Source: Butyrivibrio proteoclasticus
Lineage (GTDB): Bacteria; Bacillota; Clostridia; Lachnospirales; Lachnospiraceae
Direction: 5' to 3'
Assembly: GCF_900115735.1 (NCBI RefSeq)
Contig: NZ_FOXO01000009.1
Coordinates: forward strand, 62,001 to 126,000
Length of the DNA: 64,000 nucleotides
Program-made: the position numbers and the translations under genes
Shown: piece by piece, positions 2,804-60,790 of the stretch
How the letters are laid out: each line of letters starts with the position of its first letter
Numbering within the stretch: position 1 is the first letter of the stretch
Notes under the pieces: generated by a model
The model's input: the letters and a program-made list of their open reading frames with translations, nothing else
Told to the model about the DNA's origin: nothing
The model's database searches: none

Positions 2804-3022
2804 GTTAAAGACATAATAATCAAAGCTTTGCAAGATGCAGGCTACGACATAGTAAAGCTTATTAAGCAACAGACCACACACTATCTATGGCAGAAATATC
2901 CAAACTTTTTATCTAAGTGTTACTGGAAGCATAAGATATTTTGGTCAGATGGTTATTTTGCTTGCAGTATAGGCGAAGTATTCTCAGCAACTATACAAAA
3001 ATATATCGAGAACCAAGGTTAA
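2804..3022 (+). pseudogene. IS200-type transposase TnpA, C-terminal remnant
   Basis: About 72 codons are open from 2804 after an in-frame stop at 2801-2803. The protein contains IKQQTTHYLWQKYP, CYWKHKIFWSDGYF and KYIENQG. This is the C-terminal half of an IS200/IS605 Y1 transposase, including the helix with the catalytic Tyr (the Y of KYIENQ). The N-terminal half with the HUH metal site is absent, so it cannot be active. It points away from the neighbouring tnpB, as in IS605. It may be the rest of a once complete element shortened by deletion, or an older IS200 copy beside which the TnpB element landed. Confidence 0.8.
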
Positions 3023-22037: not shown

Positions 22038-23096
22038 ATGAGAAATTTTGATTACAGTAAAAAATGGAAAAAACTACTGATACCGGAAATAGTGGCACTG
22101 CTTACGCAGATTCATGAGTATAAAGGTGAGCAGTCATTTTTGATAGAAGCGAAGGCGGATGCACTGGCACAGTTTGTAGAGATTGCCAAGATCCAGAGTA
22201 CAGAGGCATCCAACAAGATTGAAGGTATCTATATTTCTGATGTAAGACTAAAAGCGCTAGTTAAGGATAAGACTACACCTAAGACGAGAAATGAGCGAGA
22301 GATTGCAGGATACAGGGATGTGCTTAATACAATCCATGAGAGTCATGATTACATCTCGATAAGACCGAATATGATCCTTCAGCTTCACAGAGATTTATAT
22401 AAGTTTGAAGGTTATGATATCGGTGGAAAGTATAAAGCAGCGGATAACATCATTGAGAAAGAGGATGAACAGGGCAACAAATTTATAAGATTCAGACCGG
22501 TTCCTGCATGGGAAACGCCCGAGGCAATCGAGAATCTTTGTAATGAATTTGACAAAGCTCTCGGAATCGGGACAATAGATCCGCTTCTTCTGATACCAAT
22601 GTTTATACTGGATTTTTTATGCATCCATCCGTTTAATGACGGCAACGGAAGAATGAGCAGACTGCTTACATTGCTGATGCTGTACAGGGCTGGATACATC
22701 GTAGGAAAGTACATCAGTATCGAGCATCTGATAGAAAAGACTAAGACATCATATTATGAGTGTCTGCAGGAGAGCTCTCTTAACTGGCATGAGGAAGAGA
22801 ATAATTATGTTCCGTTTGTACAGTATATGCTTGGTGTTATAGTTGCCGCATACAGAGATTTCTCTGACAGAGTAGAGACTTTGGTTACCAGCAGCCTTTC
22901 AAAACCGGAGCGCGTGGTTGAATTGATAAAAAATACTTACGGCGAGATCACGAAGTCGCAGATTATGGAGAAATGCCCTGACATAAGCCGTATAACTGTT
23001 GAGAGGGCACTGTCAGAACTTCTGTCATCGGAAAGCATAATAAAGATTGGTGGCGGTAGATATACAAAATACGTTTGGAACAGAGATAAAGGATAA
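22038..23096 (+). CDS. Fic-domain protein (AMPylator) with C-terminal winged helix
   Basis: A 352-residue protein. The Fic active-site motif HPFNDGNGR begins at H197, so AMP transfer to a hydroxyl group of a target protein is expected. An inhibitory helix lies N-terminal: SNKIEG at 58-63 fits the (S/T)xxxE(G/N) motif, placing it among class II self-inhibited Fic proteins. The last 70 residues (ERVVELIKNTYGEITKSQI...RITVERALSELLS) look like a winged helix-turn-helix and may bind DNA. It is the first gene before hsdM, 12 bases apart, so it belongs to the restriction-modification operon. Proteins of this layout recur next to type I systems. Confidence 0.9.
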   Translation: MRNFDYSKKWKKLLIPEIVALLTQIHEYKGEQSFLIEAKADALAQFVEIAKIQSTEASNKIEGIYISDVRLKALVKDKTTPKTRNEREIAGYRDVLNTIHESHDYISIRPNMILQLHRDLYKFEGYDIGGKYKAADNIIEKEDEQGNKFIRFRPVPAWETPEAIENLCNEFDKALGIGTIDPLLLIPMFILDFLCIHPFNDGNGRMSRLLTLLMLYRAGYIVGKYISIEHLIEKTKTSYYECLQESSLNWHEEENNYVPFVQYMLGVIVAAYRDFSDRVETLVTSSLSKPERVVELIKNTYGEITKSQIMEKCPDISRITVERALSELLSSESIIKIGGGRYTKYVWNRDKG

Positions 23097-23108
23097 AGGA
23101 GAACGATA

Positions 23109-24608
23109 ATGACCGGAGAACTTAAGAATAAAATAGACAGCCTTTGGGAGATATTTTGGAATGGGGGAATTACGAACCCTCTTGATGTCATTGAGCAGAT
23201 GACATATCTCATGTTCATAAAAGATCTGGATGATACAGACAACCTTCGCGCAAAAGAAGCAGCTATGCTGGGACTTTCTTACAAAAGCATTTTTGCGGGT
23301 GAAGTAGAGATTGGAGACCGCACGGTTGATGGTAATCAGCTTAAGTGGTCTACATTCCACGACTTCCCGGCGCAGAGAATGTATTCCGTTGTTCAGGAAT
23401 GGGTATTCCCTTTTATAAAGAATCTTCATGGTGACAAGAACTCCGCATACAGCAAATACATGGATGATGCAATCTTCAAGGTAAATACGCCTTTGATGCT
23501 CTCCAAGATTGTTGATGCTATGGATGAAATATATTCCATGATGGAGGAACTTCATCAGACGGACATCCGAGGAGATGTATATGAGTACCTTCTTTCCAAG
23601 ATTGCTCAGTCCGGTGTTAACGGTCAGTTCAGAACGCCGAGGCATATCATCCGCATGATGGTAGAGATGATGGACCCGAAACCAGCAGACTATATTTGTG
23701 ATCCTGCCTGCGGAACTTCTGGATTCCTTGTTACCAGCGGAGACTACCTAAGAGAAAAATATAAGAAGGAAGTTCTTCTTGATAAGCAGAATAGAAATCA
23801 TTTCATGAATGACATGTTCCACGGATATGACATGGACAGAACAATGCTCCGTATCGGCGCCATGAATATGATGACTCACGGAGTAGAGAACCCGTTTATT
23901 GAGTACCGTGACAGCTTATCCGATCAGAACCCTGATAAGGATATGTATTCCCTTATTTTGGCGAATCCTCCGTTTAAGGGTAATCTTGATGCAGATACCG
24001 TATCAACCGACCTTCAGAAGGTATGTAAGACAAAGAAGACTGAGTTATTATTCCTGGCATTGTTTGTAAGAATGCTTAAGATTGGCGGAAGATGCGCTTG
24101 TATCGTTCCTGATGGAGTGCTCTTTGGCTCTTCCAATGCACATAAGGCAATCAGAAAGGAAATCGTAGAAAATCAGCGACTTGAAGCAGTAATCTCCATG
24201 CCTTCCGGTGTGTTTAAGCCATATGCCGGTGTTTCTACAGGAATACTTATCTTTACTAAGACAGGACATGGCGGAACAGACGATGTATGGTTCTATGATA
24301 TGACTGCTGACGGCTTCAGTCTTGATGATAAGCGTACTGAAATCAAGGATAACGATATCCCTGATATCATCAGCCGCTTCAAGAATCTTGAAGCTGAAAA
24401 AGACAGAAAACGTACGGACAAGTCCTTTATGGTTTCCAAGAAGGAAATTGCTGATAACGACTATGATCTTTCTATCAACAAGTACAAAGAAGTTGAATAT
24501 GTAGCGGTAGAGTATCCTCCGACATCGGAGATTATGTCAAATATTAGAGAAATTGAGAAGCAGATCAGTCGGGAAATGGATGAGCTGGAAAAACTGCTGG
24601 CGCAGTGA
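23109..24608 (+). CDS. hsdM: Type I restriction-modification N6-adenine methyltransferase
   Basis: A 499-residue modification subunit that methylates adenine in the recognition site and forms the M2S methylase core with HsdS. An N-terminal HsdM_N helical domain precedes the methylase fold. Motif I DPACGTSGFL at 198-207 binds S-adenosylmethionine, and catalytic motif IV NPPF is at 286-289. C-terminal helices (NIREIEKQISREMDELEKLL) fit the HsdS contact. ATG behind AAAGGAGAACG, 12 bases after fic. Length is normal. Confidence 0.96.
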   Translation: MTGELKNKIDSLWEIFWNGGITNPLDVIEQMTYLMFIKDLDDTDNLRAKEAAMLGLSYKSIFAGEVEIGDRTVDGNQLKWSTFHDFPAQRMYSVVQEWVFPFIKNLHGDKNSAYSKYMDDAIFKVNTPLMLSKIVDAMDEIYSMMEELHQTDIRGDVYEYLLSKIAQSGVNGQFRTPRHIIRMMVEMMDPKPADYICDPACGTSGFLVTSGDYLREKYKKEVLLDKQNRNHFMNDMFHGYDMDRTMLRIGAMNMMTHGVENPFIEYRDSLSDQNPDKDMYSLILANPPFKGNLDADTVSTDLQKVCKTKKTELLFLALFVRMLKIGGRCACIVPDGVLFGSSNAHKAIRKEIVENQRLEAVISMPSGVFKPYAGVSTGILIFTKTGHGGTDDVWFYDMTADGFSLDDKRTEIKDNDIPDIISRFKNLEAEKDRKRTDKSFMVSKKEIADNDYDLSINKYKEVEYVAVEYPPTSEIMSNIREIEKQISREMDELEKLLAQ

Positions 24609-24650
24609 CGCAATTAGTTGAAATATGTAACCGTTTGAAGGTGTGACAAG

Positions 24651-24947
24651 TTGTTACGGGCTATTTTAGACCAATTTCCTGAAGTCGGGAAATTGGTGGA
24701 ACTATGCCAGAAGATTTGCCAACGCCGTAGAAAAGTATATAGCAAATTGAAAAAGAATAAATGGAATGTCTTAAGTAATTTACAACAACATCAAGCGGAA
24801 CAACAAAAGAACATCTTAGAGATGAGAAAGGCTATAAGGGATTATTGTGAAGCTGCTCAAAAGGTATCGGCGGAGTATCAGCAAATGGCAATAGATGCGT
24901 GTTTGCGGGAGATAGTAATACAAGTAGCAAAAAATGACACTAATTGA
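24651..24947 (+). CDS. Small helical protein of unknown function in the hsd operon
   Basis: A 98-residue open frame starting at TTG 24651 behind GAAGGTG, 42 bases after hsdM. The product is basic to neutral, Gln/Lys/Glu-rich and almost wholly predicted helical (NLQQHQAEQQKNILEMRK), with three Cys in the first 40 residues. I recognise no family. The phrase KLVELCQKICQ resembles the VEIC-type text often seen at starts of HsdS-like proteins, so it might be a fragment. It may also be a real small coiled-coil partner of the TIR-like protein behind it. No ATG start is available in the first half, which lowers confidence. Confidence 0.4.
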   Translation: MLRAILDQFPEVGKLVELCQKICQRRRKVYSKLKKNKWNVLSNLQQHQAEQQKNILEMRKAIRDYCEAAQKVSAEYQQMAIDACLREIVIQVAKNDTN

Positions 24948-24969
24948 GAGATTAGAAAGGAGAAAAAGC

Positions 24970-25629
24970 ATGACTAGAGACTATGTGGCGTCACTTCTTA
25001 ACCAAAATAATATTAAAATCGAAGAAGAAAAACGGATGAATAATGATTTAGGAGTTGTGCTGAAAACTTATGAAGGTTGTCTGATTAACATATACGATAC
25101 TGGAAAGGTAAATTGTCAAGGAAAGAATAAGGATAGAGTGGAATCACTGTTAAAATCGCCAGCTACAGTGACAAACAATAGAAAAGTGTTTGTCGTTTAC
25201 GGTCATGACATGATTGCGCGTACTCAACTTGAAGCGATGTTAAGAAGATGGGACATGGAGCCATTGATTATTGATCAATTAGTTTCATCTGGAAATACAA
25301 TAATAGAGAAACTTGAGGAATATACAGATAAAGTAAATTTGGGTATTGTGCTTGCTACACCGGATGATATTGGGTATTCAAAAAATAATGAAGATAAGAA
25401 AAAGTATCGGGTACGGCAAAATGTTGTATTGGAACTTGGTATGCTTCTAGCTAAAGTTGGAAGAGCTAAGGTGGCTATACTATTGTCACAGGCGGAAGAT
25501 ATGGAAAAACCTTCTGATATAGATGGTCTTATATATATTCCGTTTAAAGACAATGTAGAAGAAACAAAGGTCTCCCTTGCTAAGGAAATGCAGAGAAACG
25601 GATATTCATTAGATATTAGTAAATTATAA
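24970..25629 (+). CDS. TIR-like CAP12/Pycsar-effector family protein
   Basis: A 219-residue protein; ATG at 24970 sits seven bases behind AAAGGAG, better than the ATG at 24934. The C-terminal 145 residues match the TIR-like domain once called predicted nucleotide-binding protein (PF10137 type): KVFVVYGHDMIARTQLEAML at about 72-91, GNTIIEKLEEY, LGIVLATPDD, then RQNVVLELG with the candidate catalytic Glu at 155, and KPSDIDGLIYIPF. Relatives act as NAD-consuming effectors in cyclic-nucleotide defence systems. A short N-terminal domain (INIYDTGKVNCQGKNKDRVE) is of unknown role. Encoded between hsdM and hsdS, it is likely an abortive back-up to the restriction system. Confidence 0.85.
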   Translation: MTRDYVASLLNQNNIKIEEEKRMNNDLGVVLKTYEGCLINIYDTGKVNCQGKNKDRVESLLKSPATVTNNRKVFVVYGHDMIARTQLEAMLRRWDMEPLIIDQLVSSGNTIIEKLEEYTDKVNLGIVLATPDDIGYSKNNEDKKKYRVRQNVVLELGMLLAKVGRAKVAILLSQAEDMEKPSDIDGLIYIPFKDNVEETKVSLAKEMQRNGYSLDISKL

Positions 25630-25652
25630 ATTGAGATTTGTAGGGATGATAG

Positions 25653-26738
25653 ATGAAAGTTAAGATAGGAGAAATAACTAAAATTAAAACTGGAAAGCTA
25701 GATGCGAATGCTTCCTCGGAAGATGGGGAGTACCCCTTTTTTACATGTTCTAGGGAACCGCTAAAAATATCAACATATTCTTATGATTGTGAATGTGTGT
25801 TGGTGGCCGGTAATGGAGATCTGAATGTTAAATACTATAATGGCAAGTTTGATGCATATCAGCGTACATATATCATTGAAGATGATAGTTCAGGAAAATT
25901 GTACATGCCATACTTGTATTATTTCATGGAAGGCTATGTTGAAAGGCTTAGAGAACAAGCAATTGGTGGAGTAATAAAGTATATAAAACTTGGGAATCTT
26001 ACCGATGCGGTAATCGAACTTCCAGAGATTGAAAAACAAAAAGATATAGTTGAAATACTTGAAAAGGCGAAGGAGCTTTTAAATTCAAGAAAAAATCAAA
26101 TTGATATGTTAGATGGACTCATCAAAGCCCGATTTGTCGAGATGTTTGGCGATCCGAGAATAAACCCATTTGGATATGATACTGAAGAAATAGGAAAAAC
26201 ATGCAAAGTAATTACAGGAAACACACCATCTAGAAAAGTTTCTGAATACTACGGGGATTACATGGAATGGATAAAAACCGACAATATTGTTTCAGGAGTG
26301 TTAAATCCAACTAAAGCCGCAGAATGCTTATCAGAATCCGGTGCGGAAGAAGGTAGAATTGTGGATGAAAATGCCATACTAATGGCTTGCATTGCAGGAA
26401 GTATTGCCAGCATTGGAAGAGTTTGTGTGACTGACAGAAGGGTTGCTTTTAATCAGCAAATCAATGCCATTGTTCCTGAACAGTATAACACTTTATTCCT
26501 ATATACTTTGCTTCAGATTTCCAAAGATTATTTGGTAGAGGATATCAATATGGCATTAAAAGGAATTTTGTCTAAGTCAAAATTGGAGGAAAAGGTTTTT
26601 ATAGTGCCGTCAATGGAACTCCAAGATCAGTTTGCTGAATTTATTGAACAAGTCGACAAATCAAAAGTTGCCGTACAGAAGGCGTTGAATGAAACACAGA
26701 CTCTTTTCGATAGCCTAATGCAGGAATATTTTGGATAG
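25653..26738 (+). CDS. hsdS: Type I restriction-modification specificity subunit
   Basis: A 361-residue DNA-recognition subunit with two target recognition domains. TRD1 is about 1-130. The central conserved region LPEIEKQKDIVEILEKAKEL leads into a coiled coil ending near LIKARFVEMFGDP. TRD2 is about 170-310 (KVITGNTPSRK, VDENAILMACIAGSIASIG) and a second coil ends the protein. It is slightly short for the family but both halves are complete. ATG behind TAGGGATGAT. The target sequence cannot be read from the protein. Confidence 0.93.
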   Translation: MKVKIGEITKIKTGKLDANASSEDGEYPFFTCSREPLKISTYSYDCECVLVAGNGDLNVKYYNGKFDAYQRTYIIEDDSSGKLYMPYLYYFMEGYVERLREQAIGGVIKYIKLGNLTDAVIELPEIEKQKDIVEILEKAKELLNSRKNQIDMLDGLIKARFVEMFGDPRINPFGYDTEEIGKTCKVITGNTPSRKVSEYYGDYMEWIKTDNIVSGVLNPTKAAECLSESGAEEGRIVDENAILMACIAGSIASIGRVCVTDRRVAFNQQINAIVPEQYNTLFLYTLLQISKDYLVEDINMALKGILSKSKLEEKVFIVPSMELQDQFAEFIEQVDKSKVAVQKALNETQTLFDSLMQEYFG

Positions 26739-26748
26739 GAGAAAGATT

Positions 26749-27180
26749 ATGAACTGGGATGCAATAACGGGAATAGGAACAATCGGAGCTGCCTGTGTTG
26801 GAATCATTGGCATATGGTTGAATTTGTATGAAAAAACAAAGAAGTTGCTAATTAAGGCAGAGTATGCACCTCGATTTGTTATATATGCAACTAATGACTC
26901 TATGCGGACTGTAATTATAACTAGAATAGTGTTTAGCATAGATACTCATGACTTTTATGTGGATATCCGTGATGGATTGCAGGAACTCCGTATACAACCA
27001 AGCGGAGTGGATAGAATTACCTTTAATGGACGCAGCGTAGTACAGTCGTACCACAAGGCTGGAATGGAAAAGCTGTGCAATCCGGCTGATAAGATAGATA
27101 TTACCATTCATGATAATTATAAAAGAAAATACAAGATAAGAACTGATTTGACTATAGGGATGCTTGAAAGTGATTTGTAA
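26749..27180 (+). CDS. Small membrane-anchored protein in the hsd operon
   Basis: A 143-residue protein; ATG at 26749 sits behind TAGGAGAAAG, 10 bases after hsdS. Residues about 6-28 (ITGIGTIGAACVGIIGIWLN) form one membrane segment. The remaining 115 residues are soluble and beta-rich, ending KYKIRTDLTIGMLESDL. I know no family with certainty. The soluble part could be a small beta-sandwich sensor. Its place between hsdS and a HipA-like kinase suggests a defence accessory. Confidence 0.6.
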   Translation: MNWDAITGIGTIGAACVGIIGIWLNLYEKTKKLLIKAEYAPRFVIYATNDSMRTVIITRIVFSIDTHDFYVDIRDGLQELRIQPSGVDRITFNGRSVVQSYHKAGMEKLCNPADKIDITIHDNYKRKYKIRTDLTIGMLESDL

Positions 27181-27193
27181 ATGAGGTTTGCTT

Positions 27194-27292
27194 ATGACTA
27201 TCACAGCATACATGATACTTGGTGATATAAAAAGTTGTTTGAGATGTTACGAAAACTGCAAAATAGGAGCTTTTTTATGGAATATATTTTAA
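27194..27292 (+). CDS. Possible 32-residue peptide upstream of the HipA-like kinase
   Basis: ATG at 27194 follows TGAGG with a 7-base spacer and opens a frame of 32 codons beginning MTITAYMILGDIKSC, with Cys at three positions (15, 18, 22). It overlaps the start of the kinase gene by 16 bases and contains that gene's ribosome binding site, so it could couple translation. It may equally be a chance frame. Confidence 0.3.
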   Translation: MTITAYMILGDIKSCLRCYENCKIGAFLWNIF

Positions 27293-28422
27293 AACTATTT
27301 GACGTAGATTTAATTAAATTTAAAATCATTGAGAATTTGTCTGATCCTGTGTTACAGATTACATGGATAAATGAAAAGAAAAAGCATCTGCTTCCTTTAG
27401 GTATGGAACTGAGCGACAAAGGCATTGCTTCCTGGCTGAAGAACAGGACTATTCCCAAAAACCGAGCCTATGTTAATGCCTTCCTTGCAAAGTGTGGCCT
27501 TAATGCCAACAGGCCTATGGATGTAATCTCAGTTTGCAGAGGTTTATCCTTAAATGATTCATACTGGGTAGTGGAAGAAGGATTTGCAGGAACATTTGGA
27601 GATAATAATCTCTATGAGAATAATTTCAGCCGTGTGCTTGCCATGATTGCTTTTACCGGATATGGGAGCAGTGCCAGATCTTCATTGGCATCTTCTCCGG
27701 AGTTTACAACAAACGGAATGCTTCCAAAATGTTGGAGAAGAATTAGTGGGAAAGTTTATCTTTATAAAGGAGCTACATCGGGAGCATCCAATACGGGAAA
27801 TGAGCCGTATTCGGAATTATATGCATATGAGATAGGGACAGCCTTGGGTATGAATGTTGTTCCTTACAAGGTTTCAAAATGGAAGAAGCAATTGTGCTCT
27901 GCATGTGAATTGTTTACGAGTAAAGATATAGCTTTTGTTCCTATAGGTCGGGTAGTAAAAACCGGTGGGATGAGGGCAGTACGAGAGTATTATGAGAAAC
28001 TTGGATCTGAATATGTAGATGCACTTAACGATATGATAGTGTTAGATGCAGTGATCTACAATACTGACAGGCACTTTGGCAATTTCGGAGTGCTTGTTGA
28101 TAGTAAAACAAATAAGATAATAGCTCCGGCACCACTGTTTGACCATGGAAATTCCCTGTTTAATCTAGCAGGAGAAGAAAACTGGGCAGATGAGAAACTA
28201 CTTAAGGAATATGCCGAGACATTACTTCCTTGTGTATATGAAGATTATATGGAAGAGGCAAAAAAGGTAATGGACAGCAGATTAAAAGAAAAGTTAAGAA
28301 AGTTGCTGACATATAATCTGAAAAAATCAGGTGCGTATAATTATTCTTCTGATAGATTGAAATTGATCAGTAGGATGATTCAGGAAAGAGCGCGTATGAT
28401 ATTGGATGGGAAGGAGGCATAG
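27277..28422 (+). CDS. HipA/CtkA-like serine/threonine kinase
   Basis: A 381-residue protein; ATG at 27277 is seven bases behind AGGAG. The C-terminal two thirds match the HipA-like kinase fold: KVYLYKGATSG (nucleotide-binding Lys loop), the catalytic-loop text NTDRHFGNFG with D264 and N269, and DHGNSL (DFG-like, D289). The N-terminal region (ITWINEKKKHLLPLGMELSDKGIASWLKNRTIPKNR) resembles that of CtkA-like proteins. HipA toxins phosphorylate targets such as GltX and are usually paired with a HipB repressor; no HipB is next to it. It is embedded between hsdS and hsdR. Confidence 0.82.
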   Translation: MEYILKLFDVDLIKFKIIENLSDPVLQITWINEKKKHLLPLGMELSDKGIASWLKNRTIPKNRAYVNAFLAKCGLNANRPMDVISVCRGLSLNDSYWVVEEGFAGTFGDNNLYENNFSRVLAMIAFTGYGSSARSSLASSPEFTTNGMLPKCWRRISGKVYLYKGATSGASNTGNEPYSELYAYEIGTALGMNVVPYKVSKWKKQLCSACELFTSKDIAFVPIGRVVKTGGMRAVREYYEKLGSEYVDALNDMIVLDAVIYNTDRHFGNFGVLVDSKTNKIIAPAPLFDHGNSLFNLAGEENWADEKLLKEYAETLLPCVYEDYMEEAKKVMDSRLKEKLRKLLTYNLKKSGAYNYSSDRLKLISRMIQERARMILDGKEA

Positions 28423-28457
28423 CGCATGACCGCCCGATATTTTTCCACGGTCATGCG
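28423..28457 (+). promoter_or_regulatory. Perfect 10-bp hairpin masking the leader start before hsdR
   Basis: CGCATGACCG (28423-28432) and CGGTCATGCG (28448-28457) pair perfectly around 15 bases. The start codon of the leader ORF (28426-28428) lies in the left arm and a second in-frame ATG (28453-28455) in the right arm. The AAGGAGG ribosome binding site (28411-28417) stays outside. Confidence 0.65.
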
Positions 28458-28473
28458 TTTCTCGTGGCTATGA
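28426..28473 (+). CDS. 15-codon leader ORF translationally coupled to hsdR
   Basis: AAGGAGG (28411-28417) and an 8-base spacer precede ATG at 28426. The peptide reads MTARYFSTVMRFSWL and stops at TGA 28471-28473, which overlaps the hsdR ATG (28470-28472) as ATGA. hsdR itself has no ribosome binding site (the bases before it are TTTCTCGTGGCT), so its translation probably depends on ribosomes arriving from this leader. Confidence 0.6.
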   Translation: MTARYFSTVMRFSWL

Positions 28474-31400
28474 CGAACTTCGATTATCTTCAAAAAGAAC
28501 CGAAATTTGACACGTTTTCCAATGTGGCAATTGCGGCTGAGAAAATATTATATATAGATCCATCCTCCTGTATCATTAACTGTCGCAGGGCAATGGAGTT
28601 TGCAATAAAATGGATGTATTCGGTTGATGCTTCCCTTTCTATGCCTTATCAGGACAATCTGATAAGTCTTATGAGTACAGAGGAATTCAGAGATATCATA
28701 GATGAAGATCTCATGAAGCGCATGAATTTTATCCGTAAGATGGGAAATAATGCTGCTCATTCCGGCAAGAAGATTACGGAGGACCAGGCAATACTCTGCC
28801 TTGAGAACCTTCAGATTTTCTTGGATTTTGTGTGCTATTGCTATGCTGATGAATATGAAGAGCATACCTTTGACAAGTCTTTGCTGGTAAAGGGTGAAAC
28901 CGAGCAGGTCAAAAATGATTTCCCTGACGTTGATATTGAAAAACTAATTATAGAGAATTCTGCATTAAAGAAAGAACTGACATCACGACGTGAAAAGCAG
29001 GCTTTAGACTATGTTCCGAAGCCGCTGGATCTTTCTGAGTACAAAACACGAAAGATTTATATTGATGCCATGCTTATGGATGCCGGTTGGAATGAAGGCT
29101 CTGACTGGATCAATGAAGTTGAACTTCCGGGAATGCCTAATAAATCTGAAGTTGGCTATGCGGATTATGTTCTTTATGACAATTCACATAAGCCTCTTGC
29201 TGTGATAGAAGCAAAGAGGACTTGTGTAGATGTGTCAAAGGGAAGGCATCAGGCAAAACTTTATGCGGATCTTTTGGAAAAACAATACAAGAGAAGACCC
29301 TGTATTTTCTTGACCAATGGTTTCGAAACAAGAATTATAGATGGACAGTATCCTGAGAGAAAGGTTGCCTGCATTTATTCTAAGGCAGACCTTGAAAAGA
29401 TGTTCAATCTAAGAAGGATGCGGACATCTCTTGATCATATAAACGTTGATAAAAAGATTGCCGGTCGTTATTACCAGGAAGCAGCAATCAAAGCTGTATG
29501 TGATAGCTTTGATGACAAGAATCGCCGTAAAGCGCTTCTTGTCATGGCAACAGGATCTGGTAAGACAAGAACCGTAATCGAACTGTGTCATGTACTTCTT
29601 GATGCAGGGTGGATTAAGAATATTCTTTTTCTTGCTGACAGAACATCTCTTGTAACTCAGGCAAAGAGAGCGTTTGTAAACAACTATTCTTCCCTTTCGG
29701 TGACAAACCTTTGCGAAGAGAAGGATAACTATAATGCACATTGCGTTTTTTCAACCTATCAGACAATGATGAACTGCATTGATTCGGTAAAGGTTGAAGA
29801 CCAGAAGTTGTTTACTAGCGGACATTTTGACCTCGTAATATGTGACGAGGCGCACAGGTCCATTTATAACAAATACAGAGATATCTTTACCTACTTTGAT
29901 GCTCCATTGGTAGGTCTGACGGCTACACCGAAAGACGATATTGATAAGAATACTTATGAAATATTTGAATTGGAGCCCGGAGTTCCTACATACGGTTATG
30001 AGCTCGGTCAGGCTGTAACCGACGGATATCTTGTTGATTTCTTATCTGTAGAAACTAAGCTTAAGTTTATAGAACAGGGAATTGTTTATGCTGACCTTTC
30101 CGATGAAGATAAAGCTATTTATGAGAGCACATTTGAGATGGAGGACGGAGATGTTCCAGAGGCTATCAGTTCATCTGCGCTCAATTCATGGATATTCAAT
30201 GAAGATACCATCCGTCAGGTACTGCACACTGTTATGACAGAGGGCATCAAGATAGATTATGGTCAGAAGCTTGGTAAGACTATCATTTTTGCAAAGAACC
30301 ATGATCATGCGGAGAAGATTCTTGAAATCTTTAATAAGGATTATCCGCATTTGAATGGATTTGCTCAGGTAATCGACAATAGGATCAACTATGCCCAGAC
30401 TCTTATTGATGAGTTTTCGGAAGCCTCTAAGTTGCCTCAGATAGCAATATCCGTTGATATGATGGATACCGGTATCGATGTACCGGAAGTATTGAACCTT
30501 GTGTTCTTCAAGAAGGTAATGAGTTATGCCAAGTTCTGGCAGATGATCGGGCGTGGAACCAGGCTTTGTCCGGGACTTATCGACGGGGAAGACAAGAGTA
30601 AGTTTTACATTTTTGATTTCTGCGGCAACTTTGAGTTCTTCCGCATGAGCAAGGGAAAACCTACTGCTAATATGATTGCGCTTCAGGGAGCAATCTTTAA
30701 TCTGCAGTTCGAGATTACATATAAGCTACAGGATCTGGAATATCAGGTGGACAGGCTTATAGCATATCGTAATGCCTTGGTAGAAATGATGACCGGTAAG
30801 GTGCAGGAACTTCCGCGTGAAAATTTTGCGGTAAGACAGCATCTGAAGTATGTTGACTTGTATTCAAATGAGGCAAATTATCAGACGTTGACATATGAAG
30901 ATACATTGATAGTACGTGAAGAACTTGCTCCTCTGATTCTTCCGAATGATGATGAGGCAAGTGCGGTACGTTTTGATGCGCTCATGTATGGCATAGAGTT
31001 GGCATATCTTGTTGGCAAGAAGTATGGCAGAGCCCGTAGCGACTTGTTTAAACGTGTCAGGGGTATCGCAAGCGTTGCAAATATTCCGGAGATAAAGGTG
31101 CAGGCAGAACTTATCGATAAGATTCTTCATACGGATTATATCGATAACTGCGGCATCAACGAGTTTGAGGAAATCAGAGAAAAACTTCGTAATCTTATGA
31201 AGTATATTCCTCATAATAAGCTTCGTTATGATACGAATTTTGAGGATGATATCCTTGATGTTTCATGGAATGAGTCGGAGCTTGAGAATGATGATTTGAA
31301 GAATTACAAGGCTAAGGCTGAATATTATATTCGTGAACACCAGGATAATGAGGCAATCAAGAAGCTTAAGTCTAACATTCCGTTGTCTCATGACGATATA

Positions 31401-31760
31401 GAGGCACTGGAAAAGGTTCTTTGGTCTGAACTTGGTACCAAAGAAGAATATGAGCAGGAATACGGCTCTAAGCCTCTGGGTGAGCTCGTTCGTGAAATTG
31501 TCGGTCTTGATATGAATGCGGCCAAGGCTGCATTTTCAGAATATCTGGAGAGCAACAATCTTGACAGCCGGCAGATATATTTTGTGAACCAGATTGTCGA
31601 GTATATTGTTCACAATGGCATGATGAAGGATCTGTCTGTGCTTCAAGAATCTCCGTTCACAGATCAAGGCAGCGTAGTTGAGATATTTATAGATCTAAAT
31701 GTCTGGATGGGAATCCGGAAAGTTATTGAAAGCATAAATGATAACGCGATAGCGGCATAA
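28470..31760 (+). CDS. hsdR: Type I restriction endonuclease, R subunit
   Basis: A 1096-residue motor and nuclease subunit. Residues 1-130 form a DUF4145-like helical domain (INCRRAMEFAIKWMY, MGNNAAHSGKKI). The HSDR_N PD-(D/E)XK nuclease follows with ADYVLYDNSHKPLAVIEAKRT. The SF2 helicase has Walker A VMATGSGKTRT, DEAH box VICDEAHRS, GLTATP and the motif VI stretch MIGRGTRL. A C-terminal helical domain ends the protein. The start is taken as ATG 28470 rather than GTG 28464 because it overlaps the leader stop as ATGA. Complete, no frameshift; it ends the operon. Confidence 0.95.
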   Translation: MTNFDYLQKEPKFDTFSNVAIAAEKILYIDPSSCIINCRRAMEFAIKWMYSVDASLSMPYQDNLISLMSTEEFRDIIDEDLMKRMNFIRKMGNNAAHSGKKITEDQAILCLENLQIFLDFVCYCYADEYEEHTFDKSLLVKGETEQVKNDFPDVDIEKLIIENSALKKELTSRREKQALDYVPKPLDLSEYKTRKIYIDAMLMDAGWNEGSDWINEVELPGMPNKSEVGYADYVLYDNSHKPLAVIEAKRTCVDVSKGRHQAKLYADLLEKQYKRRPCIFLTNGFETRIIDGQYPERKVACIYSKADLEKMFNLRRMRTSLDHINVDKKIAGRYYQEAAIKAVCDSFDDKNRRKALLVMATGSGKTRTVIELCHVLLDAGWIKNILFLADRTSLVTQAKRAFVNNYSSLSVTNLCEEKDNYNAHCVFSTYQTMMNCIDSVKVEDQKLFTSGHFDLVICDEAHRSIYNKYRDIFTYFDAPLVGLTATPKDDIDKNTYEIFELEPGVPTYGYELGQAVTDGYLVDFLSVETKLKFIEQGIVYADLSDEDKAIYESTFEMEDGDVPEAISSSALNSWIFNEDTIRQVLHTVMTEGIKIDYGQKLGKTIIFAKNHDHAEKILEIFNKDYPHLNGFAQVIDNRINYAQTLIDEFSEASKLPQIAISVDMMDTGIDVPEVLNLVFFKKVMSYAKFWQMIGRGTRLCPGLIDGEDKSKFYIFDFCGNFEFFRMSKGKPTANMIALQGAIFNLQFEITYKLQDLEYQVDRLIAYRNALVEMMTGKVQELPRENFAVRQHLKYVDLYSNEANYQTLTYEDTLIVREELAPLILPNDDEASAVRFDALMYGIELAYLVGKKYGRARSDLFKRVRGIASVANIPEIKVQAELIDKILHTDYIDNCGINEFEEIREKLRNLMKYIPHNKLRYDTNFEDDILDVSWNESELENDDLKNYKAKAEYYIREHQDNEAIKKLKSNIPLSHDDIEALEKVLWSELGTKEEYEQEYGSKPLGELVREIVGLDMNAAKAAFSEYLESNNLDSRQIYFVNQIVEYIVHNGMMKDLSVLQESPFTDQGSVVEIFIDLNVWMGIRKVIESINDNAIAA

Positions 31761-60731: not shown

Positions 60732-60790
60732 GTTTAGAGAACGCTGTTGTTCTGGCTCGCATGCTTGCATGCGAGAGCAGAACTTCCTTG
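60721..60790 (+). terminator. Large hairpin at the end of rlmD
   Basis: Outer arms AAGGAAGTT (60721-60729) and AACTTCCTT (60782-60790); inner arms GTTCTG (60750-60755)/CAGAAC (60779-60784) and CTCGCATGC (60757-60765)/GCATGCGAG (60768-60776). It overlaps the rlmD stop. No T-run follows, so it may be a processing or barrier structure rather than an intrinsic terminator. Confidence 0.5.

Follow-up and report, generated by a model that had tools for sequence, protein, structure and literature searches.

A hairpin between the Shine-Dalgarno sequence and start codon of hsdR in Butyrivibrio proteoclasticus is best read as the remnant of a dispersed palindromic element

How is the restriction subunit of a type I system translated when its start codon has no Shine-Dalgarno (SD) sequence of its own? 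The question is raised by an HsdMSR type I locus at 23109-31760 of the window (the whole stretch of 64,000 nucleotides of Butyrivibrio proteoclasticus DNA analysed here), in which a gene for a HipA-like kinase lies directly before hsdR (Table 1). An AAGGAGG now stands 8 nt from the ATG of a short leader ORF and 52 nt from the ATG of hsdR, and an earlier note on this DNA had proposed that the leader, with its start codon held in a hairpin, gates hsdR expression. On direct reading, the parts named in that proposal are all present: AAGGAGG, the kinase stop, the 10-bp perfect stem with the leader ATG inside it, and the 15-codon leader, whose stop TGA (28471-28473) overlaps the hsdR ATG at 28470 as ATGA. 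A scan for SD matches of at least 4 nt at -19 to -4 found none before hsdR, and in the predicted fold the leader ATG is fully paired inside a stable stem. The question is whether these parts form a dedicated switch or have another source.

Table 1. Features of the type I locus and of the junction upstream of hsdR (positions in the window)
Feature	Position	Strand	Evidence or reading
hsdM	23109..24608	+	Pfam N6_Mtase 5.5e-65, HsdM_N; same operon-like locus
hsdS	25653..26738	+	Methylase_S 3.2e-28
HipA-like kinase gene (ORF from TTG; ATG of MEYILKLF ~27277)	27235..28422	+	HipA_C 22.8 bits
AAGGAGG, Shine-Dalgarno (SD)	28411..28417	+	read here as displaced hsdR SD
HipA-like kinase stop TAG, at stem base	28420-28422	+	direct sequence reading
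Stem left arm CGCATGACCG; contains leader ATG; read as 5' end of element remnant	28423..28432	+	aligned with long forms
Leader ORF MTARYFSTVMRFSWL, 15 codons, ATG 28426-28428, ends ATGA on hsdR	28426..28473	+	
15-nt loop of window hairpin	28433..28447	+	long forms: spacer 95 nt longer, stem encloses three inner hairpins
Stem right arm CGGTCATGCG	28448..28457	+	direct sequence reading, inverted-repeat scan
3' tail TTTCTCGTGGCT; corresponds to long-form TTTCTCGTAGCT 3' of right stem arm; no SD	28458..28469	+	alignment
hsdR, type I restriction subunit	28470..31760	+	Pfam ResIII, EcoEI_R_C, HSDR_N; PADLOC REase_I 1e-154

The two stem arms, of 10 nt each, are 100% complementary and form the sole inverted repeat of at least 8 nt in 28380-28500. 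The 76 nt from 28405 to 28480 fold at -27.5 kcal/mol (z -2.5), a stability reached by one of 200 shuffles, and the spacer between the SD and hsdR alone folds at -20.3 kcal/mol, compared with -10.5 (sd 2.7) for 300 dinucleotide shuffles; by these predictions, the stem is unlikely to have arisen by chance. The exact hairpin occurs at a single site of its own genome in both BLAST and pattern searches, which rules it out as an exact multi-copy repeat of that genome, and the 96-base junction had no match in a plasmid search.

A scan of named genomes returned 452 stretches encoding HsdR relatives. The best 80 of these were kept, and up to 170 nt before hsdR could be read in 78 (L069 and L086 begin at a contig end that falls within hsdR). 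Among these best 80 of 452, six of the 78 readable loci have the hairpin junction in common (L013, L014, L016, L019, L021 and L030). An SD of at least 4 nt at -19 to -4 was found in 70 of the 72 hairpin-free loci (the exceptions being L028 and L080) and in none of the six hairpin loci. The 14 loci whose HsdR is at least 94% identical in the best segment comprise the six with the hairpin and eight that have an SD and no hairpin, a distribution that runs largely against the leader control proposed earlier.

Together with the window and three further junctions (G024/L009, G070/L095 and G078/L098), the six make up ten junctions for comparison. The stem arms recur in nine related junctions, and an ATG stands 8 nt after GGAGG in all ten because it sits in the stem arm. 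The reading frame that opens there has 15 codons in the window and in L098, where both sequences are the same, and in L013 it reads MTAR and then stops (4 codons). It has 13 codons in L019, 18 in L014, where it extends past the hsdR ATG, 19 in L016, L030, L009 and L095, and 22 in L021; in the last five, the long forms described below, its stop starts 73-82 nt before hsdR. Since neither the length (4-22 codons) nor the end of the leader is conserved, the leader ORF is probably incidental. Of the features that the earlier note had tied together, the stem arms are thus shared by relatives, the leader peptide and the ATGA overlap (two of ten junctions, the window and L098) are not, and a dedicated leader switch is mostly not supported by the comparison.

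The junctions differ in length as well. In short forms, GGAGG and the hsdR AUG are 51-52 nt apart, whereas the distance is 147 nt in five long forms (L016, L030, L009, L095 and L021), in which the stem encloses three further hairpins. What lies there between the SD and the AUG of hsdR is an element of about 136 nt, composed of an outer palindromic stem and three inner hairpins. It is nearly perfect in L021 (z -10.2, 14-bp outer stem), where the 147-nt spacer folds at -85.3 kcal/mol compared with -39.6 (sd 3.6) for shuffles, and where the order is hsdS-SD-element-hsdR with no kinase. In alignment, the short forms L014 and L019 retain letters from inside the element (CTCGAAAG, CTCGAAAGCCTGC) between intact arms, and they therefore look like products of internal deletion; the window, L098 and L013 represent a third short type, and little of the element sequence is left in the loop of the window. 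The 3' end of the kinase gene is of type GATGGGAAGG in the short forms of the window, L098, L013 and L014 and in the long form L009, and of type CTGAACTGAAAGG in the short form L019 and the long forms L016, L030 and L095. As long and short forms accompany both types, shortening most simply occurred more than once, and the reverse order, from short to long, seems less likely from these sequences. As a separate observation, hsdR lies in two overlapping ORFs in the long-form genome G024 (L009:8233-11590) and looks broken there. In G064, a truncated element follows a kinase 3' end (L096:1501-1551), and at the thresholds applied this genome gave no match for either the kinase or hsdR.

The exact inner hairpin was absent from 200 family genomes and from viral contigs; as it did not serve as a family marker, a covariance model was used. 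Model R1 was built from five long junctions, with L016, L030 and L021 in its alignment, and model R2 was rebuilt on 32 matches, with L016 and L021 in its alignment; the scores of 131.9-134.4 bits that R2 gives to L016, L030 and L021 are matches by construction, as R1 held all three and R2 held two of them. With R1, at least 55 of 299 family genomes, nearly all of different genera, had a match with E no higher than 0.001. With R2, copies were found in all 40 genus genomes searched (2-17 each at E 0.01 or better, with 13 in this genome) and, at a cut-off of E 1e-4, in at least 26 of 391 class genomes, comprising 14 of the family (six of the genus, this genome included) and 12 outside the family. 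The family and class counts are lower bounds, since 11 candidates per genome were scored in the 299-genome search and 8 in the 391-genome search, and the model E-values are rough, their nearest control being the 365 of 391 class genomes with no hit at E 1e-4. Rfam searches of L016, L021 and L001 returned nothing at E up to 1, 12 further loci had no match at the gathering score, and no description of the element was found in the open-access literature searched, judged from titles and abstract openings. The element family may thus be undescribed; it is a more interesting find than the hsdR hairpin and is worth following.

In an alignment of 80 copies (79 distinct rows), paired cells amount to 91.3%, compared with 55.2% when shuffled and 37.5-43.8% in slid controls, and 48 of 49 pairs change on both sides among the distinct rows, in alignments (A6 and A7) that were fitted to the structure later counted. 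Further pair types do not exceed those of shuffles in the 80-copy set, where 166 of 500 reach the observed value. The sequence of the outer stem differs between copies yet stays complementary, and the conserved letters include a UC on either flank of hairpin 1; hairpin 2 has GGC..UC..GCC, and the tip of hairpin 3 has GCAA. Complementarity also continues into the flanks beyond the element, at a mean of 4.14 of 12 positions, the maximum of 2000 shuffles being 3.75. In three copies (L147, L193 and L214), the outer palindrome runs 10-14 nt into otherwise unique flanks. At L204:1740-2017 (G000:C50:10739-11016), two copies face opposite ways with 11 bp between them, an arrangement like that of REP pairs.

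Relative to the genes beside them, the copies point either way, and many lie just 3' of genes or within operons, for example etfB-etfA; by a crude stop-to-stop ORF rule, in 35 of the 80 the right end is at most 26 nt from the end of an opposite-strand ORF, an overlap of up to 3 nt being accepted. Family models identify neighbours as YchF (L214), EF-Tu (L165) and, below curated cut-offs, the beta and alpha subunits of electron-transfer flavoprotein (etfB and etfA; L211), and five copies (L183, L190, L201, L207 and L209) have a tRNA-Lys at a distance of about 60-70 nt. The neighbour of L154, which we take to resemble rubrerythrin, had no NCBIfam match at 1e-20.

At etfB-etfA, the model hit five of 30 loci, four times in the gap and a fifth time (L265) more than 1 kb away. 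In the 16 loci where the etfB stop was located by script, the gap measures 173-174 nt with a hit (n = 4), 25-46 nt without one (n = 9), and 188-205 nt with no hit and another palindromic insert (n = 3). The gap insert of L259, L264 and L274 is flanked by GTGATAT...ATATCAC and is unmatched by R2 at E 0.01. The EtfB encoded at empty sites with a gap of 43-46 nt (L252, L253 and L254) matches the query at 100% identity, and that of the filled sites at 99-100%. This is direct presence/absence variation between close relatives; it does not in itself give a direction, gain or loss, and the empty sites could reflect deletion. No hit of the element model at E up to 0.1 was found in 25 Y1_Tnp loci from six of the seven genomes searched. 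As no transposase was linked to the element in these loci, we infer its mobility from presence and absence.

MITE-like or IS200/IS605-derived palindromic elements are non-coding, have terminal inverted repeats and show presence/absence variation. The element is like them in all these respects; unlike theirs, its outer stem varies from copy to copy while remaining complementary, and no parent transposase was found. It is likewise similar, as a small dispersed extragenic palindrome, to the REP or GTAG-tagged palindromic repeats, which measure 20-40 bp and often lie within 20 bp of gene 3' ends in the genomes described in passages of PMC3733652, and a GTAG stands near the right end in 18 of 80 copies. 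Unlike these repeats, however, it has about 130 nt with three inner hairpins, and GTAG is not general in it (near the left end in 2 of the 80). Its model has no match in the 25 Y1 transposase loci searched for IS200/RAYT linkage. The main text of PMC3733652 contains no mention of Clostridi, Lachno, Firmicutes or three genus names.

Taken together, these comparisons suggest that the window hairpin is most likely a remnant of the dispersed palindromic element, the window copy being best read as what an internal deletion left. In an ancestor of the window allele, an element of about 136 nt would have landed downstream of the SD and ahead of the start codon of hsdR; an internal deletion would then have left the outer stem as the present hairpin, and the orphaned SD would now serve an ATG inside the element arm, from which the leader ORF would have arisen. 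The window copy would belong to the family by descent, via the intermediates L014 and L019, which R1 finds at E 0.0092 and E 0.04, respectively. The R2 model has no match to the window hairpin copy; the one hit that it has in the window at E up to 1 is away from the junction, at 60748-60784 on the minus strand, where it covers part of hairpin 3 only (E 0.12) and is possibly a fragment of another element copy.

Two other ideas about the origin of the junction were rejected. A mobile cassette of element and kinase does not agree with L021, which has the element without the kinase, or with G059 (L102), which has a kinase 82% identical without an element or hsdR match. That the outer arms are an inverted copy of the hsdR start, with which they share ATGACC, was rejected as the main idea because L154, which lies elsewhere, has nearly the same arm (with adjoining letters, CAAGCCATGCCCGCTCA, resembling CAACGCATGACCGCTCG in L021).

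If the hairpin is such a remnant, the retained outer stem would shorten the distance from SD to AUG in the manner of a split ribosome-binding site, and HsdR would still be made; from the folding models, we tentatively take it as the likeliest route, at somewhat less than even odds, that the stem bridges the displaced SD to hsdR. Reinitiation after the leader stop or the kinase stop would be a second route, and leader reinitiation is possible in the window and L098. The spacer folds below the shuffle mean in all ten junctions (weakest in L019, at -15.2 versus -12.9, sd 2.5). Provided that the outer stem forms, L021 is left with an effective spacing of 11 nt, L014, L019, L016, L009 and L095 with 13 nt, and L013 with 19 nt; the isolated spacer fold of the window gives 3 nt, and the main 12-pair stem by itself would give 13 nt. 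The exterior nucleotides number 11-13 in seven of the ten junctions (shuffled means 9.1-12.3) and 3 in the window and L098, which 20 and 32 of 300 shuffles reach, respectively. For most junctions, the effective spacing does not fall below that of shuffled spacers, and a shortening beyond chance was not seen. A tight bridge is not fitted by L013, with its 19 nt, or by L030, which folds into five domains and in which, by eye, an A-C mismatch breaks the stem.

When 230 nt of upstream context are included, the predicted folds do not favour the outer stem in L019, L016, L009 and L095, the right arm there being paired to the start of hsdR, and do not clearly favour it in L030 and L013; most of the SD is paired in the window fold and also in several junctions with this context. 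Such pairing of the right arm with the hsdR start (GTCAT with ATGAC) could, in these models, switch hsdR on or off, or it may be a by-product.

In genes 25 and 38 of phage T4, structure between SD and AUG restores a working distance, cutting the spacing from 27 to 11 nt and from 22 to 5 nt, respectively, as given in passages of PMC3014915. The hsdR junctions are like these split ribosome-binding sites in placing structure between an SD and a distant AUG, with similar predicted spacings; unlike the T4 genes, their structure is an element dispersed across Clostridia, and shuffled spacers give similar values. A wider and still more tentative reading is that Clostridia harbor an undescribed family of mobile DNA elements of about 130 nt, which would be kept as palindromes at the DNA level (G-U cells not in excess of A-C cells in the larger alignment, a variable outer stem that remains complementary, and inner hairpin loops that are conserved) and are presumably recognised as folded single-stranded DNA by an enzyme of the host or an unlinked one. 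Because such elements fold out, one that separates an SD from its start codon could still give a working split ribosome-binding site, and hsdR would then be translated through a domesticated mobile element.

Several alternative explanations need to be weighed against descent from the element. One is that the short hairpin is an old control hairpin of hsdR into whose loop the three inner hairpins were inserted later. The stem common to short and long forms agrees with this, and the outer palindromes that run into unique flanks in L147 and L193 would fit insertion into existing palindromes; however, the short forms L014 and L019 keep element-internal letters, hairpin-free alleles run straight from SD to ATG, and the arm with its adjoining letters resembles the copy at L154, all of which makes an old control hairpin very unlikely. 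The family as a whole might instead be a structured regulatory RNA of 3' untranslated regions and operon junctions, with the hsdR copy acting as an RNA control, as the strong covariation and the many copies directly downstream of genes or within operons, etfB-etfA among them, would suggest. In the first 32 rows, G-U cells indeed outnumber A-C cells (51 and 28 among 1437), but over 80 rows they are no longer in excess (86 and 80 among 3599 cells in paired columns), unlike what selection on RNA pairing would give. As G-U cells are as few as A-C cells in this larger set, the counts suggest maintenance of palindromes in the DNA and not of RNA helices, again in alignments fitted to the structure counted. 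Copies in both orientations relative to neighbouring genes and an etfB-etfA site that is empty in close relatives likewise argue against a regulatory RNA, which we consider unlikely.

The two remaining alternatives concern the window junction itself. Under the control proposed in the earlier note, the leader is translated from AAGGAGG and HsdR by termination-reinitiation at ATGA, with the stem imposing a delay until ribosomes that end the kinase gene open it. The proper SD, the 8-nt spacing, the ATGA overlap, the fully paired leader ATG and an hsdR without an SD all agree with such a switch, and L098 retains the same leader; nevertheless, leader length and stop differ in the other eight of the ten junctions, hsdS rather than the kinase lies upstream in L021, and relatives manage without leader and hairpin, so that we regard the switch as improbable. 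That the hairpin is a transcription attenuator or terminator between the kinase gene and hsdR is more doubtful by far: the stem is G+C-rich and is followed by TTTCTC in the window and GTTTTTC in L013 and L098, but the T run is weak, and a terminator scan, which admits loops of 3-8 nt only and would not take the 15-nt loop of this hairpin, finds no site in 27200-28700.

Hairpins that limit access to the start sites of type II restriction endonucleases, such as that of Cfr9I, are described in passages of PMC12707154. The window is similar in having a hairpin at the start of a restriction gene; unlike the type II case, it combines a type I hsdR with a probable inserted element. The same passages report that hsdR transcription is delayed by 1 h on subculture, a transcriptional and not a translational delay, and that ClpXP removes HsdR, and they do not describe an inserted element in a type I operon.

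If the hairpin is an element remnant, an apparent restriction-control switch becomes the landing site of a dispersed element, which cautions that conserved-looking leaders in single genomes are easily over-read. Members of the element family are present in many Clostridia of gut and rumen, frequently at gene 3' ends or inside operons, and if the stem does bridge the SD to hsdR, the junction would be a natural case of mobile palindromes tolerated inside ribosome-binding sites.

Several observations concern the neighbouring genes. The kinase scores below the Pfam cut-off of 30.5 for HipA_C and matches PADLOC PDC-M03A at 4.6e-17, and its relatives on plasmid and phage records are 26-49% identical. 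A Fic protein is encoded at 22038-23096, directly before hsdM (PADLOC SoFic 9.7e-38), and a TIR-domain protein at 24934-25629, between hsdM and hsdS (CAP12-PCTIR_TIR; PADLOC PDC-S35 1.7e-93). Neither the 98-aa ORF at 24651-24947, before the TIR-domain gene, nor the 149-aa ORF at 26731-27180, between hsdS and the kinase, has a Pfam or PADLOC family match, and L009 has a different ORF in place of the latter. In addition, a fragment of a Y1_Tnp (IS200-like) gene is present at 2846-3016 of the window (G000:C41:64846-65016).
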